Below, piece after piece: positions 3,542 to 12,157 of a stretch of 42,718 nt of DNA (within the stretch, counting starts at the first letter, position 1; each line of letters begins with the position of its first letter). A program made the translations under genes and the position numbers. The notes beneath the pieces were generated by a model. The model ran no database searches. It saw nothing but the letters and a program-made list of their open reading frames with translations, and was not told the origin of the DNA. The stretch is taken from contig CAMDWT010000012.1 of assembly GCA_945877505.1 (NCBI GenBank), positions 1-42,718 on the forward strand. Direction: 5' to 3'. The DNA is from Crenothrix polyspora (GTDB lineage Bacteria > Pseudomonadota > Gammaproteobacteria > Methylococcales > Methylomonadaceae).

Positions 3542-5137
3542 TTAATAATAAACCCTGAATGATTGTTGAATTTCTTCAAATTCAAATAAATACGGTTGTG
3601 CGACTTGACGGTTATTAACCACAACCAGTAAATCATGTGAAAAAACTGACGTGTTATACCAGTTAAAGCTCCCTTCTATGACAATAGCATCATCAATCAC
3701 ACAATATTTAGAATGGATCGGTGAATAAGGTACAGGATGATCATCTTGCCCGTAAACCAGTCCTACTATAATACCAGCCTCTTTTAGGCGATTAACGGCA
3801 GGCAATAAAGGGCGATTAAGCTCATCAATCATCGATCTTTCCACACCAACACGACCTTGCCTTGCTAAATGTCCATTAAAAAGCACATGGACATACACCC
3901 CCCTATTTTTGGCGTTAATTAAGGCCTCAACCACGCTATCATGATGCTCGCCCAATAAATCACCCATTAAAAACAAGCTCAACTTAATGGAGTGCTTAGC
4001 ATGATGAATTTCAGCCAAAATAGCATGATGAGGCCGATATGGCTGACCATTAAGCATCATCTGCCGACCAAAGGTATAAAGTAAATTAAAATGACTTAAA
4101 GGATCAATACCGTATTTTTGATTAACACCCCCACGCTGACTCTGAAAAATATTATCCAGCAATCGACAAACGCCTTTGGAATGAAACGTCATTCCAGACT
4201 CCCAATTAGCCCACCAACGATCGAACGTGATATTAAATGAACCTAATATACAATCTTCATCATTAAAAATGACAAACTTAGTGTGCATATCCGGCTCAAC
4301 CTCAATAAGATGATGCCTGGGCGTACAAAAAACACCTATCAGTTCAATGTTAGCCTGTTTTAATCGAGCATAATTATGACTATTAGTCAGCGTCATTTTT
4401 CGCCAATCTACGATACACTGCACCAAAACACCCTGATGAGAGGCATACACTAAATGAGAAATAAAGTCAGAATCATCAATGCAATCTACGCTAACTTTTA
4501 TGGTGCATAAGCGCTCAGGGTTCTCCCATTTACTGCGAATCACTGTATCGATATGATCATGAATATAACGTTTAGGATGATACGGATGGTAGTGCTGACC
4601 TTTGGTGAATTTTGGCGTAAGATTTAACGATTCAAAATGATGATTATACCAATCTACATCACTCTGCAATACGCAGGCATTCAGCTCATAAGTTTGATAA
4701 TCGTTAGGCGTTGACCATTCATTATTAATCCGCCTATATTGCGGATGGCCATCATGTGTTTGAAATCTATCCATAAAAATGTACTCTTTTTCGGATGAGA
4801 TAGAGTGTTCATGTAAATGAATAATATACGAAAACTTAATACAGTTAATAGCACCTAAATTATTACTAAAAGGCAGAATATAAAAATCACGTGTACAACG
4901 CTTATGCCTATCCGATTGAATCTCAAAAGCATCCGTATCGACTATATATGTTTCACATAAACCATGATCACGATAAACCTTAATAATTACTTTTACGTTT
5001 GCCTGTATACCGTAACATAGATCAAATTCTATTCTGCCCCAGCGGACGTTAAAATTTTCATTAAAATCATTAACTCTTTGAAAATAGCCACCCAAATCCC
5101 CATGAACGGGTATGGCGTAGTGTTCTGCTATTGGCAT
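3542..5137 (-). CDS. Phospholipase D-like (double HKD) protein, distal gene of the glycogen cluster
   Basis: This 531-residue protein has two complete phospholipase D-superfamily half-sites: His285-Thr-Lys287 followed by GSFN at 299-302, and His475-Ser-Lys477 followed by GSFNWYN at 489-495. The superfamily forms a phosphohistidine intermediate and cleaves phosphodiesters in lipids, nucleic acids or other substrates; the substrate here cannot be read from the motifs. Residues 1-180 are unassigned. They contain alternating hydrophobic stretches that could form a beta-sandwich, but lack the YWDNN motif of the upstream neighbour. No signal peptide or membrane helix is visible, so a cytoplasmic location is likely. 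The ATG at 5137 has a clear AAGGAG ribosome site. It lies 84 bases after the CBM21-EEP gene in the same direction, so the two probably form one transcript downstream of glgA. Confidence 0.85.
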   Translation of the reverse strand: MPIAEHYAIPVHGDLGGYFQRVNDFNENFNVRWGRIEFDLCYGIQANVKVIIKVYRDHGLCETYIVDTDAFEIQSDRHKRCTRDFYILPFSNNLGAINCIKFSYIIHLHEHSISSEKEYIFMDRFQTHDGHPQYRRINNEWSTPNDYQTYELNACVLQSDVDWYNHHFESLNLTPKFTKGQHYHPYHPKRYIHDHIDTVIRSKWENPERLCTIKVSVDCIDDSDFISHLVYASHQGVLVQCIVDWRKMTLTNSHNYARLKQANIELIGVFCTPRHHLIEVEPDMHTKFVIFNDEDCILGSFNITFDRWWANWESGMTFHSKGVCRLLDNIFQSQRGGVNQKYGIDPLSHFNLLYTFGRQMMLNGQPYRPHHAILAEIHHAKHSIKLSLFLMGDLLGEHHDSVVEALINAKNRGVYVHVLFNGHLARQGRVGVERSMIDELNRPLLPAVNRLKEAGIIVGLVYGQDDHPVPYSPIHSKYCVIDDAIVIEGSFNWYNTSVFSHDLLVVVNNRQVAQPYLFEFEEIQQSFRVYY

Positions 5138-5221: not shown

Positions 5222-6727
5222 CTACCCTGCTTCAAAAGTCATAAGATAGCCACAATGATCAGAGACTCGGCCATAGTCTTCGTCAGTAAAAAGAATATTT
5301 GCTGCGATAATTTTCAGCTGACTGTCTTTCTTCATAAATAAATAATCAATTCTGTAATCCTCAGCAATGCTATGTTGCCAATAAGGATCATTTACTTTGA
5401 ATATTTTTGAAGCGGTGCCTTGAGAATTAAACGTTAAAAAGGGGTCTTCATAGTTGTTATTATTTACAACGAGATCATAGCCTTCTGAACCGACTGTAAT
5501 ATTGAAATCGCCACATAATAAGGTACCTTTTACTTCGTTTGTTTGATTATCAGATGCCCACTGGCTTAAACGTGTGAATTGCTCTGAAAAACCGTCATCC
5601 CACCAACTCAAATGCACTGAATAAATATTAAATAGACCTAAAAAAGGAACATTAACCTGAGCCATGACAACCCTTCTTGTATGAATATTGTCCGGACTAT
5701 GACTATTGGAAACGAATTTAGAGGCTTGGTGTAAAATCGGATATCGACTTAGGATCGCAACACCTTCACGGTATTTATCAAAGCCTAAGTGTGACCAGTC
5801 GGTATAGAGATGAAATGGCTGAGGAAGTTGATCATTAATAATTTTGGCTGCATTGGTGCTCCAATCTCCCTGTCCATTATTCCAAAGCTCTGCGACTTCT
5901 TGTAGACAAATAATATCGGCATTTTGCTCATTAATCGCCTTGGCAATTTGTGAAAATTTAAAACGCTGATTATCTTCCTGATAACAATGTAAATTAAGCA
6001 TTAAAATACTTAAGGGTTTATGCCTCAACGAGTAGTTGTTGCCTTTATTATTATCCCAATAAGTTTGCTCAGCCGTTTCACAACAGATAAGGTATTGAAC
6101 ACTGAAGGCACTATCTAATTTAATTTTCCCTTGCCAAATTTCTGAACCATATTGATTTGGATTTCTGGCATTACTCGCAGTTTCCTCATCCCAATAATGT
6201 CTATTAAAGTGACACGAAGTTTTATGTGTGTGTCGCCAATTATCAGTGCTCCAATGGAGAGTAACCGCACTAACTTGAATGGCTTGTTTAACTGAAACAA
6301 CAACAGAAATTTGATTTTGATCGTCTAGTAATTGGCTCTCGAAACCAATGTTTTGCATTACTTCGGTGGTTAAAACCTTTACGCCTGAGTCGGCTTGACT
6401 AGAATAATTAAGTCCTTCGTTATTGTCCCAATATTCGCAACCTAGTGTTTGATATCGCAAAGCAAAAACAATATTGCCTGGAAGTGATTTAACCGAAGAG
6501 CCAACACAACTAACATGAGCGGTCCAATATTCTTTATTAGGTTCTAAATTGCTATGATAACTTGCTGATAACGCTTGCCAATGGCCATCTTCACCGGCCC
6601 AAACCACCTCACACTGCTTATCATGGCTTATATTCTCTAGCACTATATAAAAAGACACGTTCTGGCACAGTCTCTTTTTTTTTCTTGAAATTACATTTTC
6701 AACATACAGCAATTGAACCTCATTCAC
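5222..6727 (-). CDS. Endonuclease/exonuclease/phosphatase-fold enzyme with two N-terminal CBM21-like glycogen-binding modules
   Basis: The 501-residue product has three parts. Residues about 1-115 and 130-235 are two beta-rich modules, each ending in the hallmark of glycogen/starch-binding family CBM21 (and related CBM53): YWDNNEGLNY at 99-108 and YWDNNKGNNY at 223-232. Residues about 240-501 are an EEP (DNase I/inositol-phosphatase/sphingomyelinase) domain with all core residues visible: Asn245 in LNLH, Glu277 in CLQEV, His372 in SVHLSWW, Asp407 and Asn409 in GDFN, Asp461 in RIDYLF, and Ser489-Asp490-His491. The enzyme should therefore be an active metal-dependent phosphoesterase. There is no signal peptide. 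The GTG at 6727 is preceded by GGGGGCG, a fair ribosome site. It follows glgA by 148 bases in the same direction. A role on intracellular glycogen is inferred from the CBMs and neighbours; the substrate is unknown. Confidence 0.85.
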   Translation of the reverse strand: MNEVQLLYVENVISRKKKRLCQNVSFYIVLENISHDKQCEVVWAGEDGHWQALSASYHSNLEPNKEYWTAHVSCVGSSVKSLPGNIVFALRYQTLGCEYWDNNEGLNYSSQADSGVKVLTTEVMQNIGFESQLLDDQNQISVVVSVKQAIQVSAVTLHWSTDNWRHTHKTSCHFNRHYWDEETASNARNPNQYGSEIWQGKIKLDSAFSVQYLICCETAEQTYWDNNKGNNYSLRHKPLSILMLNLHCYQEDNQRFKFSQIAKAINEQNADIICLQEVAELWNNGQGDWSTNAAKIINDQLPQPFHLYTDWSHLGFDKYREGVAILSRYPILHQASKFVSNSHSPDNIHTRRVVMAQVNVPFLGLFNIYSVHLSWWDDGFSEQFTRLSQWASDNQTNEVKGTLLCGDFNITVGSEGYDLVVNNNNYEDPFLTFNSQGTASKIFKVNDPYWQHSIAEDYRIDYLFMKKDSQLKIIAANILFTDEDYGRVSDHCGYLMTFEAG

Positions 6728-6875: not shown

Positions 6876-8309
6876 TTAAATTTTCTCATATAATTCAAGA
6901 TATTCTTGGGCACTACGTTGCCACGAAAAATTCTTATTCATAGCATTGGTTTGCATTTTTTTCCAAGTATCCGGCATACTGTATAAAATTAGAGTTCGTT
7001 TTATCGCTTCTAACAACGCACTCGCACTCGCTTCACTAAAGACAATCCCACTTGCTGTTTTATCCGCTAGCGTTGTTGGCAAACTATCCATGACAGTGTC
7101 TGCTAAGCCTCCGGTTTTCCTGACGATCGGAATAGTTCCATAACGCTGACTATACATTTGATTCAAACCACAAGGTTCAAAACGCGAGGGCATCAAGAAC
7201 ACATCCGCACCCGCTTCTATAAGATGCGCTAATGCCTCATCATAACCAATTTGAACAGCTATCTTATCGGGATACAACAAGGCTAAGTCTTTTAACTGTT
7301 TCTCAAACTCTTTATCGCCACTACCCAGCAATACAAATTGAATATCCATTGTCATCATTTCAGGCAGACATTCTAATATCATATCTATGCCTTTTTGCGC
7401 CACTAAGCGACCAATCAAACCAAACAGCGGAATATCACCTTTAACTGGCAGTGAAAATTTAGTCTGTAAAGCAACTTTATTTAACTGTTTCTTATCGAGT
7501 GTTGACAGAGAATATGTTTGGGCTATGTAAGGATCTTTCTCAGCATCCCATTGATCCAGATCAATACCATTAATGATCCCGCCCAAAAATTCTTTTCGAT
7601 GCTCTAAAAGTCCTTCAAGTCCATACCCAAATTCCGCCGTCTGTATTTCTAGCGCATACGTTGGACTAACCGTTGTAATATAATCCGCATAAACCAAACC
7701 GCCTTTAATAAAAGACAACATGCCATGGAACTCAAGTCCCGCAGGATGCCATAATTGACCTGGGATATTTAAGGTAGCTGCTGCACTCGCAGGAAACAAA
7801 CCCTGATAAGCCATATTATGGATGGTGAAAATAGTCGATGGGCGATCATTTTCAAAGGATAACAAAGCAGGAACTAATCCACTTTGCCAATCATTACAAT
7901 GAACCACATCAGGCTTCCAATCCTGATTAACCCTATCCATAGCTGCTTCAACGGCGATACGGCAAAATAGCCCAAACCGTTCCGCATTATTAGCCCACGA
8001 CTCACCTTGTTCATCAACGTAAGGATTACCTGGGTAATTAAAGTAGCTTGGATAATCAACCAGCCAAACGATAACCTGACTATCAGGCATGCGTGTTTCT
8101 AGGATATTGATATTCCTGTTATCAACACGAATAGAACACATGAAGCGGACACTTTCACTGGTCTTTAAAGCTTGATAATTGGGTATAATCAGCCTTATAT
8201 CTTGTGATAATTCAGCTAATGCCTTGGGTAAACTGCCGCAAACATCGGCAAGCCCACCCGTCTTAATTAATGGGTGGGCTTCACTAGTAACAAATAGTAT
8301 TTTTTTCAT
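6876..8309 (-). CDS. glgA: Glycogen synthase (ADP-glucose) GlgA
   Basis: GlgA is a GT5 glycosyltransferase that adds glucose from ADP-glucose to the non-reducing ends of growing alpha-1,4-glucan in the cytoplasm. The 477-residue protein starts MKKILFVTSEAHPLIKTGGL, which includes the ADP-glucose binding KTGGL loop at residues 16-20. Later come the GLIGRLVAQKGIDM segment and the C-terminal RFEPCGLNQMYSQRYG and KTGGLADTV motifs that close the GT-B active site. The length is the usual one for bacterial GlgA. The ATG at 8309 has no clear ribosome site. It lies 92 bases after glgB on the same strand, with a hairpin between them, and is followed by the EEP and PLD-like genes. Confidence 0.97.
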   Translation of the reverse strand: MKKILFVTSEAHPLIKTGGLADVCGSLPKALAELSQDIRLIIPNYQALKTSESVRFMCSIRVDNRNINILETRMPDSQVIVWLVDYPSYFNYPGNPYVDEQGESWANNAERFGLFCRIAVEAAMDRVNQDWKPDVVHCNDWQSGLVPALLSFENDRPSTIFTIHNMAYQGLFPASAAATLNIPGQLWHPAGLEFHGMLSFIKGGLVYADYITTVSPTYALEIQTAEFGYGLEGLLEHRKEFLGGIINGIDLDQWDAEKDPYIAQTYSLSTLDKKQLNKVALQTKFSLPVKGDIPLFGLIGRLVAQKGIDMILECLPEMMTMDIQFVLLGSGDKEFEKQLKDLALLYPDKIAVQIGYDEALAHLIEAGADVFLMPSRFEPCGLNQMYSQRYGTIPIVRKTGGLADTVMDSLPTTLADKTASGIVFSEASASALLEAIKRTLILYSMPDTWKKMQTNAMNKNFSWQRSAQEYLELYEKI

Positions 8310-8401: not shown

Positions 8402-10780
8402 TTATAATTTTAAGATTAACGCTCCCAAAGGTGGCAGGTTAAGTTTGATTGAGTGCGGTTGATTCATCCACACTATAGCCTCTGATCCAACAGCGGCATT
8501 GCCTACATTACTACCATCATAATATTTTGAATCAGAATTAAAAATCTCAGTATAAGTGCCTTCATCAGGCACTCCAAGTCGATAATTCTCTCTAGGAACC
8601 GGTGTAAAATTTAAAACAACAATTAAGTCTTCAAATTTACTTTTGCGTCGATAACTAATAATTGAATTTTCTACATCATGGCAATCAATCCATTCAAAGC
8701 CTTGAGATTCAAAATCATGAGCAAACAAAGCGGGATGTGTTTTATATAAATAATTCAAATCGGTTACTAGTGTTGAAACACCCTTATGATGAGGGTAGTC
8801 TAAAACATACCAATCCAAATCTTTACTCGCATTCCATTCTGTACCTTGTCCAAATTCACAGCCCATAAACAAAAGTTTTTTACCGGGATAGGTATACATG
8901 AAGGTGTAAAGTAATCGTAAATTAGCAAAACGTTGCCATTCATCTCCTGGCATTTTGTTAAGCAATGAACCTTTTCCATGCACCACCTCATCATGTGAAA
9001 AAGGTAGGGTGAAGTTTTCTGTAAAGGCGTAAAGCATCCCAAAAGTAAGACTATCGTGATGATATTTACGATGAATGGGCTCCTCACTCATATACGACAG
9101 CACATCATGCATCCAACCCATATTCCATTTCATGGAAAATCCTAAACCACCCGTCCATGTTGGTCGCGTTACTTGGGGCCATGAAGTAGACTCTTCTGCC
9201 ATCATCACAGTGCCCGGATGAAGATCATGAGTAACCGCATTGAGCTCTCTGAAAAAATCAATCGCTTCTAAATTCTCATTGCTACCATACATATTAGGTA
9301 TCCAATCATTCTCTTCCCGAGAATAATCTAGATAAAGCATAGAAGCAACGGCATCAACTCTTAAACCATCCAGATGAAACTCTTCCAACCAAAAGTTAGC
9401 ACTCGCTAACAAAAAGTTCTTTACTTCATTTCGACCATAGTTATAGATAAGCGTGCCCCAATCACGATGCTCGCCTTTACGAGGGTCTTCATGTTCATAA
9501 AGCGCACTGCCATCGAAACGAGCTAGCGCAAAGGCATCTTTAGGGAAATGGGCAGGAACCCAATCCAAAATAACGCCAATACCATTTTGGTGACAGGTAT
9601 CGATAAAATAACGAAAATCATCAGGAGATCCATGTCGACTGGTCGGTGCAAAATAACCCGTTGTTTGATAACCCCATGAACCATCAAAAGGATGCTCGGT
9701 AATGGGTAACAATTCAATGTGTGTAAAACCCATCTGTTTAACATAATTAACAAGCTCTACTGCAAGCGTTCTATACGATAAGAAGTTGCCGAGGTTATCA
9801 CGTCGCCATGATCCTAAATGGACTTCATAAATCGACATCGGCTCATGTAGCCAATCATGTTTAATCCGTTGTGTCATCCATTGCTTATCTTGCCAACTAT
9901 AGCTTTTTTCTTTCACTACAATAGAAGACGTATTGGGTCGGAATTCAAACTGTTGCCCGTAGGGATCTGTCTTTAATAAAATTTCCTTCGTATAACGGTT
10001 CAAAATCTCAAATTTATATAAAGAACCTGCTTTTAAACCTGGCAGAAATATTTCCCAAATTCCGCTCCCACCAAGACTCCGCATAGGATGACAACGCCCA
10101 TCCCAACGATTGAAATCGCCAACCACACTAACTCGACCTGCATTGGGTGCCCAGAGCGTAAATAAAACACCATCAACACCATCGACATTATGTAAATGTC
10201 CCCCTAATTTTTTATAGATATGCCAGTGCTTACCTTCTCCAAACAAATGTTGGTCAAATTCTGGTAATTGGGTGCCAAAGTCATAAGAATCATAGTTTTC
10301 ATGACTATAACCATTTTTATCTACCCATAGTATTTTGTAATGCGCTGGCAATTCAGCATCTTTAATAAAACATTCAAAAAAATCGGTACCCGGAAGACGA
10401 CATAACTCCGCACCGTTATGACTAAGATGAACTGTTTCTGCGTAGGGTAGATAAACGGTAATATTAAGTTGATCGTTTTTAATATGACGACCTAAGACTG
10501 AAAAAGGATCATGGTGCTTTGCTTCGCTAATTTTCAAAGCGTCCGCATCAAGTTTACTTGGCGGTGCTTTTACAGTCTGATCTTCCGTTGCTTTGACTAT
10601 GGGAAGCTTATCTTTTTTTATGGCTACTGCCTTAGGTTTTATAGTTTTCTTAGGTGTCGTTAGCGGTTTAGTCGCGGCCATTTTTTTTGGAATTTCAGCG
10701 TCTGGCGTCATTACTTCCGGTTTTTCTGAGATTGATTGTATAAGCTCAGAGTCAAGTGTATTAATAGAACGCTTTTTCAC
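8402..10780 (-). CDS. glgB: 1,4-alpha-glucan branching enzyme GlgB with a long basic N-terminal tail
   Basis: GlgB is a GH13 enzyme that cuts alpha-1,4 chains and re-attaches them as alpha-1,6 branches in glycogen. In this 792-residue protein an N-terminal CBM48-type region includes [20 protein letters not shown] (about 207-226). The catalytic barrel has the nucleophile Asp476 in [10 protein letters not shown], the acid Glu529/530 in MMAEES and Asp597 in [12 protein letters not shown]. Residues 1-84 are rich in Lys, Pro, Thr and Ala, and precede the usual start of homology ([11 protein letters not shown]). The protein is thus about 60 residues longer than the E. coli enzyme. The frame starts with GTG at 10780 with GAGG about ten bases upstream; internal Met codons at residues 24 and 34 are alternatives. 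It diverges from glgC. Confidence 0.96.
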
Positions 10781-10876: not shown

Positions 10877-12157
10877 ATGTCAGAGCCAAGTAATTACCAA
10901 CATGATCATAATGTTGGTCATTTAACACGTAATACGATTGCACTAATTTTAGCGGGTGGTCGTGGCTCAAGATTGATGAACATGACGGATTGGCGGGCTA
11001 AACCCGCTGTACCTTTTGGCGGTAAGTTTAGAATTATTGATTTCCCTTTGTCTAATTGTGTTAATTCTGGCATACGCAAAATTGGCATACTCACCCAATA
11101 CAAGTCGGATTCTTTAATTCGTCATATTCAACAAGGATGGGGGTTTTTACGCGGTGAATTTGGTGAATATGTCGATTTAATGCCCGCGCAACAAAGACAT
11201 GATGAAAACTCTTGGTATAAAGGAACCGCTGACGCTATCTTTCAAAACATTGATATTCTGCGTAGTCGTAACCCCGCACACATTTTAGTCTTAGCCGGTG
11301 ATCATATCTATAAAATGGATTATGGTGCAATGCTGGCTGATCATATTCAAAAGAAAGCTGATTTAACGATTGGTTGTTTAGAGGTTTCACTTGAAGAAGC
11401 AACCGCCTTTGGCGTTATGGATGTTGATGCAAACCGACGCGTTAAGGCTTTTGTAGAAAAACCCGAACACCCCCCCGTTATGCCTGGAAGAACTGATACC
11501 GCCTTGGCATCGATGGGTATTTATATTTTTAATGCTGGTTTTCTTTTTGAGCAATTACTTAAAGATGCTGACAATAAAGATTCCACAAATGATTTTGGGA
11601 AAGATATCATACCTGCTGTCATTGATAAATATAACGTGAATGCTTATCCATTTCTGGACTTACAAAGTGGTGCACAAAGTTATTGGCGTGATGTAGGGAC
11701 AATTGACGCCTACTGGACAGCCAATATGGAATTGATCGGTGTTAATCCTGGCTTGAATCTTTATGATAATACTTGGCCCATCTGGACTAACCAAGAACAA
11801 ACACCCCCCGCTAAATTTGTATTTGATGATGATGAAAGGCGCGGACTAGCGGTTGACTCGATGGTTTCAGGCGGCTGTGTCATCTCTGGAGCCACCGTAC
11901 GGCACTCTTTGTTATTCTCAAATGTGCGGGTCAATTCCTTTACTTCTGTTAAGGATTCTATTGTCTTACCCCAAGTTAATATCGCTCGCCATTGCAGGAT
12001 TACTAAAGCAATCATTGAAAAAGGCTGTGACATTCCGGAAGGAACTATTATCGGTGAAAACAGAATAGACGACGAAAAAAGATTTCATGTAAGCGCAGGA
12101 GGCGTGGTCTTAGTCACCCCTGATATGTTGGGGCAAAAATTACACTATGTTCGATAA
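10877..12157 (+). CDS. glgC: Glucose-1-phosphate adenylyltransferase GlgC
   Basis: GlgC (ADP-glucose pyrophosphorylase) makes ADP-glucose and pyrophosphate from ATP and glucose 1-phosphate. It is the committed, allosterically controlled step of bacterial glycogen synthesis. The 426-residue protein has the nucleotide-binding [11 protein letters not shown] motif at residues 23-33, the [19 protein letters not shown] segment, [12 protein letters not shown], and the sugar-phosphate site VEKPEHPP. The C-terminal third is a left-handed beta-helix containing the [20 protein letters not shown] repeats. The length is usual. The ATG at 10877 has GGAG eight to eleven bases upstream. It is divergent from glgB and followed, after a 292-base gap containing a palindrome and a terminator, by malQ. 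Confidence 0.97.

Follow-up and report, generated by a model that had tools for sequence, protein, structure and literature searches.

Tandem CBM21 modules joined to a MapP-like EEP domain and paired with a PLD-like protein beside the glycogen genes of Crenothrix polyspora: a candidate bacterial glucan phosphatase pair

The window analysed here is a stretch of 42,718 nucleotides from Crenothrix polyspora (contig CAMDWT010000012.1, assembly GCA_945877505.1), in which four genes follow one another on the minus strand in the order glgB, glgA, CBM21-EEP and PLD. The third gene of this run (5222..6727, minus) encodes a protein of 501 residues from a GTG start at 6727, and the same first residue stands at the alignment start in most of its relatives. 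The protein joins two carbohydrate-binding modules of family 21 (CBM21) to a catalytic domain of the endonuclease/exonuclease/phosphatase (EEP) superfamily. No hydrophobic N-terminal stretch was seen in it by eye, in agreement with the earlier note on this DNA, which had described the protein as lacking an export signal and as following glgB and glgA; both genes lie upstream on the same strand. The fourth gene (3542..5137, minus) begins 84 bp further on and codes for a phospholipase D (PLD)-like protein of 531 residues with a predicted N-terminal all-beta domain (about residues 1-146) and two HKD-type motifs. This conserved partner had been missed by the note.

Module 1 lies at 6401..6661 (minus) and module 2 at 6026..6349 (minus). 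The Pfam family CBM_21 matched the protein in two stretches (E 7.9e-18, 65.2 bits against a gathering score of 28.9), and in the whole-genome search each module passed the family cut-off singly. The motif YWDNNEGLNY is found in module 1 (residues 99-108; 6404..6433, minus) and YWDNNKGNNY in module 2 (residues 223-232; 6032..6061, minus), and the two modules match one another by profile (hhalign 94%, E 1.1e-7). The nearest solved structures were Rhizopus glucoamylase (1.5e-7) and PPP1R3C (3.7e-7) for module 1, and PPP1R3C (1.6e-9) and PPP1R3B (3.5e-7) for module 2. Since the EEP domain filled the match list in the structure search of the predicted model, the assignment of the CBM fold rests on the sequence profiles and on beta-rich predicted segments. 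The whole-genome search showed no further CBM21 in the C. polyspora genome, and none was present in 397 other Pseudomonadota genomes (an even draw) or in 14 control genomes. Double-CBM21 proteins that lack an EEP domain were observed in G559, a genome of the Accumulibacter family, where two are arranged in tandem (L068:4279-5067 and L068:5190-5972) and one stands apart (L069:4226-5029). They have signal-peptide-like starts, as judged by eye, and an identical set of matches was found in G672.

The EEP catalytic domain covers residues 239-499 (5231..6013, minus) and was matched by Pfam Exo_endo_phos with an E value of 6.4e-16. In 15 sequences, the window protein and 14 relatives, the residues N245, E277, H372, D407, N409 and D461 were invariant; D490 and H491 were nearly so, the exception being L007, where the contig ends within the gene and both residues are missing. 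Family match and catalytic residues together place the domain in the EEP superfamily. The profile search for CBM21 and EEP that the note had proposed thus brought both families over their cut-offs, and its description of two modules like those of protein phosphatase 1 (PP1) subunits and of a complete set of catalytic residues was borne out by Pfam, by both motifs and by the PPP1R3 relatives. The CBM21-CBM21-EEP architecture is confirmed as an observation far above chance. When the PDB was searched with a whole-protein profile of the 15 sequences, the structure 3TEB scored 111 bits and the next EEP structure 16.9 bits. These searches also bear on a phospholipid system at the border of granule and membrane, in which the PLD-like protein and a sphingomyelinase-like EEP would attach or release glycogen. 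We consider it very improbable: the domain is far from the sphingomyelinases (8j2f, 13.2 bits), no membrane segment was seen by reading, and it would be strange for a lipase to be recruited through binding to glycogen.

The note had given DNA, inositol phosphates or sphingomyelin as the substrates of known EEP enzymes. This did not hold, as two such enzymes are named for sugar 6-phosphates. BT3783 (4C1R) is a mannosyl-6-phosphatase by its PDB title and shows only 16% identity (11.8 bits). One paper describes mapP behind malT in E. faecalis and MapP as a maltose-6-phosphate phosphatase, previously regarded as an EEP family member with no assigned function (PMC3737437). In a plasmid search, 72 records contained a relative of the EEP domain. 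Three of these proteins were examined (from Enterococcus, Leclercia and Priestia); each is encoded directly behind a phosphotransferase system (PTS) IIBC gene and near a gene for GH65, an alpha-glucosidase or a beta-phosphoglucomutase. They are 29-32% identical to the window EEP domain and, like the window protein, contain the segments of the catalytic motifs as well as the pattern H-x-(S/G)-W-W-x-D...F. For the two that were searched, 3TEB was again the best PDB match (233 and 132 bits). A tree of 25 rows was calculated from 8 of the 15 CBM21-EEPs, 6 solo EEPs, the 3 PTS-linked EEPs, 3TEB and, as an outgroup of one EEP type only, 7 other EEPs of the host family. A branch with 100/100 support separated the CBM21-EEPs, solo EEPs, PTS-linked EEPs and 3TEB from the 7 others. 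The closest EEPs by sequence are therefore 3TEB and the proteins encoded in a mapP-like gene order, ahead of other EEP classes, and the domain is best read as MapP-like. This nearness, together with the existence of EEP enzymes for sugar 6-phosphates, strengthens the idea of a glycogen phosphate esterase, which is a specific prediction because 3TEB is the only strong solved relative of the domain and is also the best match of the PTS-linked EEPs.

The MapP type of the domain would equally suit a soluble substrate, maltodextrin phosphate or maltose 6'-phosphate, with the modules merely placing the enzyme where dextrins are released. We regard this as unlikely. Two CBMs point to a polymer, no PTS gene was recognised beside the gene when the window was read (the rest of the genome was not searched for one), and methanotrophs are not known to take up maltose through a PTS. 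The solo EEPs of the same clade, which have about 280 residues and no CBM, were seen in about 34 of the 151 host-family genomes among the matches listed. Six of them (L048-L053) were examined; they are 33-38% identical, no glycogen genes were recognised alongside, and the solo EEPs keep the segment HLSW, which is absent from 3TEB. A strongly transcribed 'maltose 6-phosphate phosphatase' is listed with transporters for methanotrophic deep-sea mussel endosymbionts in another paper (PMC13401447), and this may be either a CBM21-EEP gene or a solo EEP.

The PLD-like partner was matched by Pfam PLDc_2 in two stretches with 117.4 bits, compared with a gathering score of 27. Its second motif, H475-x-K477 ... 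D482 ... GSFN (3662..3715, minus), is a complete HxKx4Dx6GSxN motif. The first, H285-x-K287 ... N292 ... GSFN (4232..4285, minus), has N at the D position in all 12 aligned rows, a change in the HKD motif that is tolerated in some PLD members. The mean column identity was 84% for the PLD protein (12 rows) versus 70% for the CBM21-EEP protein (15 rows). The N-terminal 146 residues (4700-5137, minus) are conserved and predicted to be all-beta, and neither a PDB match nor a credible Pfam match was obtained for them. A hidden CBM21 was considered for this domain, as the two look alike by eye. It was rejected on sequence, the profile probabilities being 1.0% and 0.7% and the single Pfam match, in 1 of 12 members, being at chance level.

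The predicted model of the PLD protein was poor (predicted local distance difference test, pLDDT, 55.7), and its nearest folds were Nuc, NucT, phospholipase D, Zucchini, PLD4 and FAM83B. The nucleases among these matches are weak guides at this model quality. They bring up a glycogen-held nuclease pair, in which the EEP and PLD proteins would both be nucleases for DNA or RNA that serve salvage or protection close to the granule. This is a rather unlikely explanation. The EEP domain reached 29.4 bits with the exodeoxyribonuclease III model TIGR00195, far below the cut-off of 182.55, and it is glycogen genes, not defence genes, that lie beside the EEP gene. A role in anti-phage defence was also considered and set aside, as the EEP protein had no PADLOC match and no defence genes were recognised alongside. 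In another candidate role, the partner would be the writer that modifies glycogen by transfer of phosphoryl or phosphodiester groups, with the EEP protein as the eraser. The PLD protein showed profile and fold matches to polyphosphate kinase, itself a phosphotransferase with the PLD fold; the genes are paired as a unit, and the carriers include a member of Accumulibacter, known for storing both glycogen and polyphosphate. The matches are, however, weak (template modelling score about 0.2, from the same poor model) and no donor is known, so that we give this arrangement little chance.

The pairing of the two genes was followed in the host family, the Methylomonadaceae, of which 151 genomes were searched. 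The CBM21-EEP protein matched 105 of them at all, and after eight weak or solo-only cases had been dropped, 97 carriers were left, including G145, where the contig stops within the gene, and G133, where the match covers residues 206-499 only. The PLD protein was likewise present in 97 genomes. Both genes occurred in 95 genomes, the EEP gene alone in two (G032, G076), the PLD gene alone in two (G068, G123) and neither in 52 (Fisher p 1.7e-35, not corrected for kinship). Each of the four unpaired genes is at most 213 bases away from a contig start, on the partner's side. The PLD gene came next on the same strand in 87 of the 95 genomes, with 20-501 bp between the matches. Of the eight remaining, six have the genes on different contigs, and in G089 and G094 the genes are truly apart; there, the EEP gene stays with a GH57 gene (G089) or with GH57, DUF4912 and GlgX genes (G094). 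In G133 we observed an open frame of 286 residues with the EEP part only (G133:C36:76081-76929) and the PLD gene still adjoining, so the CBM part may have been lost or frameshifted.

Outside the host family, the pair was found in Accumulibacter, Pseudomaricurvus and SAR324. At the 14 loci of named genomes the PLD gene was next in 11, the sequence ended too early at L003 and L007, and in SAR324 the PLD gene begins 7.6 kb downstream at the contig end, as judged from matching coordinates. In the Accumulibacter family, 5 of 150 genomes matched the CBM21-EEP protein, three of them at full length, including the Accumulibacter genome itself, and in these three the EEP and PLD genes are adjacent. Among 184 genomes of the Pseudomaricurvus order, the Pseudomaricurvus genome itself was the single carrier. 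Neither protein was found in the 397 genomes of the phylum draw (thresholds 1e-40 for the CBM21-EEP and 1e-20 for the PLD protein). Because both genes are patchily spread together, the distribution suggests that the pair moved between lineages as a unit.

In the window, glgA for glycogen synthase (6876..8309, minus; named by reading) ends 148 bp upstream of the CBM21-EEP gene in the same gene run. It is preceded by glgB for the branching enzyme (8402..10780, minus), which was read from the sequence and has relatives at other loci, and glgC (10877..12157, plus), also read from the sequence, is divergent. Predicted promoters and terminators around the genes were at the level of shuffled sequence (26 versus 26.8 and 5 versus 5.3), and therefore no conclusion on transcription units was drawn. 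A second glgA, 66% identical, was observed off the glg cluster (G000:C4:60849-62276; L066:8850-10283), with no adjoining EEP or PLD gene.

Glycogen genes adjoin the EEP gene at 9 of the 14 loci of named genomes, where the genes were named by partial Pfam runs (L006, L009, L010, L012) and otherwise by likeness. The gene stands beside glgB-glgA at L001-L004, of which L002 belongs to the cultured Methylobacter psychrophilus Z-0021, and beside a GH57 branching enzyme gene and a DUF4912-type gene at L006, L007, L009, L010 and L012. An isoamylase-type debranching enzyme (GlgX-like) is also encoded at L006, L007 and L012, and at L010 the order glgA-glgB-glgC follows past the PLD gene. No glycogen genes were seen beside the EEP gene at L008, L011, L013 and L014, and L005 was too short to tell. 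In the host family, glgA lies within 6 kb of the EEP gene in at least 29 of the 97 carriers, a lower bound for which 33 glgA rows were taken in. The DUF4912 proteins (L006:3320-4285, L009:3692-4357 and, by likeness, L010:270-1166), which adjoin the GH57 branching enzymes near the EEP gene, are possibly glycogen proteins of unspecified role.

Our preferred reading, to which we give a chance just short of even, is that the CBM21-EEP protein is a cytosolic, glycogen-anchored phosphomonoesterase of the MapP type that acts with a PLD-fold phosphodiesterase on glycogen phosphate. The tandem modules would hold the enzyme on glycogen, as expected for their family. The metal-dependent EEP domain would then strip phosphate monoesters, most likely from C6 of glucosyl units, from glycogen itself or from phosphorylated maltodextrins released from it. 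The PLD-like neighbour would work on the same material and may, as a first step, cleave a phosphodiester linkage through which a group is attached to the glucan, because phosphodiesters are the main substrates of PLD-fold enzymes. This step would leave a monoester that is subsequently removed by the EEP enzyme. One possible diester, from work on animal glycogen, would be glucose-1-phosphate linked to C6.

Several points weigh against this reading. A monoesterase alone does not explain the PLD partner, which must enter any full explanation. The plasmid EEPs are assigned to MapP from their gene context, 3TEB is a protein of unknown function without the SWW segment, the join of the CBM21-EEPs with the PTS-linked EEPs in the tree is weak (86/58), and the tree program flagged long branches on three rows. 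Of W47, Y83 and Y94 of Rhizopus glucoamylase, which we take to form the sugar site (site I), the first and third correspond to W50 and W100 of module 1 and the second to A89; the module would thus keep only two of three aromatics. In the host family, the CBM21-EEP protein went unmatched in 47 of 141 genomes with a glgA match, and glgA gave no match at 1e-60 in three of its 97 carriers (G072, G121, G125); the CBM21-EEP protein is therefore not required for glycogen synthesis and not strictly tied to this glgA. No enzyme resembling glucan water dikinase, the only type of writer sought, was found in the genome. Finally, one paper leaves it undecided whether bacterial glycogen carries phosphate (PMC13011383). 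Two PPDK_N proteins were considered as glycogen phosphate writers and rejected: one, a frame of 807 residues, looks like a phosphoenolpyruvate synthase by length only, and the second was read as a pyruvate phosphate dikinase. The interpretation of the earlier note is, as a whole, partly supported.

A wider claim is that a CBM21-MapP-type EEP protein and a PLD-fold phosphodiesterase or transferase form an independently evolved bacterial glucan phosphatase pair that edits phosphate esters or diesters of glycogen, is transferred as a unit and is the first in bacteria. We put this forward tentatively, as a possibility with the balance tilted against it. A 2009 survey came to the view that bacteria have no protein in which a phosphatase domain is fused to a carbohydrate-binding one, and it considered a bacterial glucan phosphatase unlikely (PMC2714694); the 2025 paper already cited calls phosphate on the glycogen of such organisms a speculation (PMC13011383). 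The CBM21-EEP gene and its partner offer a concrete place to test both statements. In the open-access literature, covered by titles and the beginnings of abstracts, no description of a CBM21 and MapP-type EEP fusion with a PLD partner was found among the papers listed. The parts are known; what appears new is the fusion of a MapP-type EEP domain to CBM21 and its pairing with the PLD-like protein. If the reading is true, the glycogen of methanotrophs is covalently phosphorylated and this modification is controlled. The CBM21-EEP protein may also become a compact tool enzyme, of separate evolutionary origin, for the reaction that is defective in Lafora disease.

Among known systems, DISARM DrmC and NucT-like proteins have PLD-like domains in common with the partner. 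The partner differs from them by its extra N-terminal beta domain, no DISARM genes were recognised alongside, and it scored 41.2 bits with the DrmC model NF038319 against a cut-off of 133. MapP has the same type of EEP domain as the CBM21-EEP protein, whose gene, unlike mapP, has glycogen genes and a PLD gene as neighbours; the EEPs in the mapP arrangement have about 260-275 residues, are too short for a CBM21 pair and lie behind a PTS gene. The PP1 glycogen-targeting subunits (PPP1R3A/B/C) likewise have a CBM21 that ends in a WDNNxGxNY-like motif. They recruit a separate protein phosphatase, so that the phosphatase is on another chain, whereas the CBM21-EEP protein carries its enzyme in the same chain. 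Removal of phosphate from glucans by bound enzymes is known from animals, plants and protists alike. The note had likened the design to that of laforin. By Pfam, a module of a glucan-binding type and a phosphoesterase domain, a putative phosphatase, stand in one chain; the nearest architectural analogue is SEX4 with its CBM21 rather than laforin with its CBM20. According to the survey, SEX4 of plants and green algae has a CBM21-type module and a phosphatase domain that dephosphorylates alpha-glucan, and laforin has a CBM20 and a dual-specificity phosphatase domain (PMC2714694). SEX4 is a dual-specificity phosphatase with one C-terminal CBM21, whereas the bacterial protein has an EEP domain behind two N-terminal CBM21 modules. 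Laforin and the CBM21-EEP protein have no catalytic fold in common; CBM_21 and Exo_endo_phos were the only Pfam families over the cut-off, and no dual-specificity phosphatase domain was found. The CBM21-EEP protein would be a bacterial, non-homologous counterpart of SEX4 and laforin.
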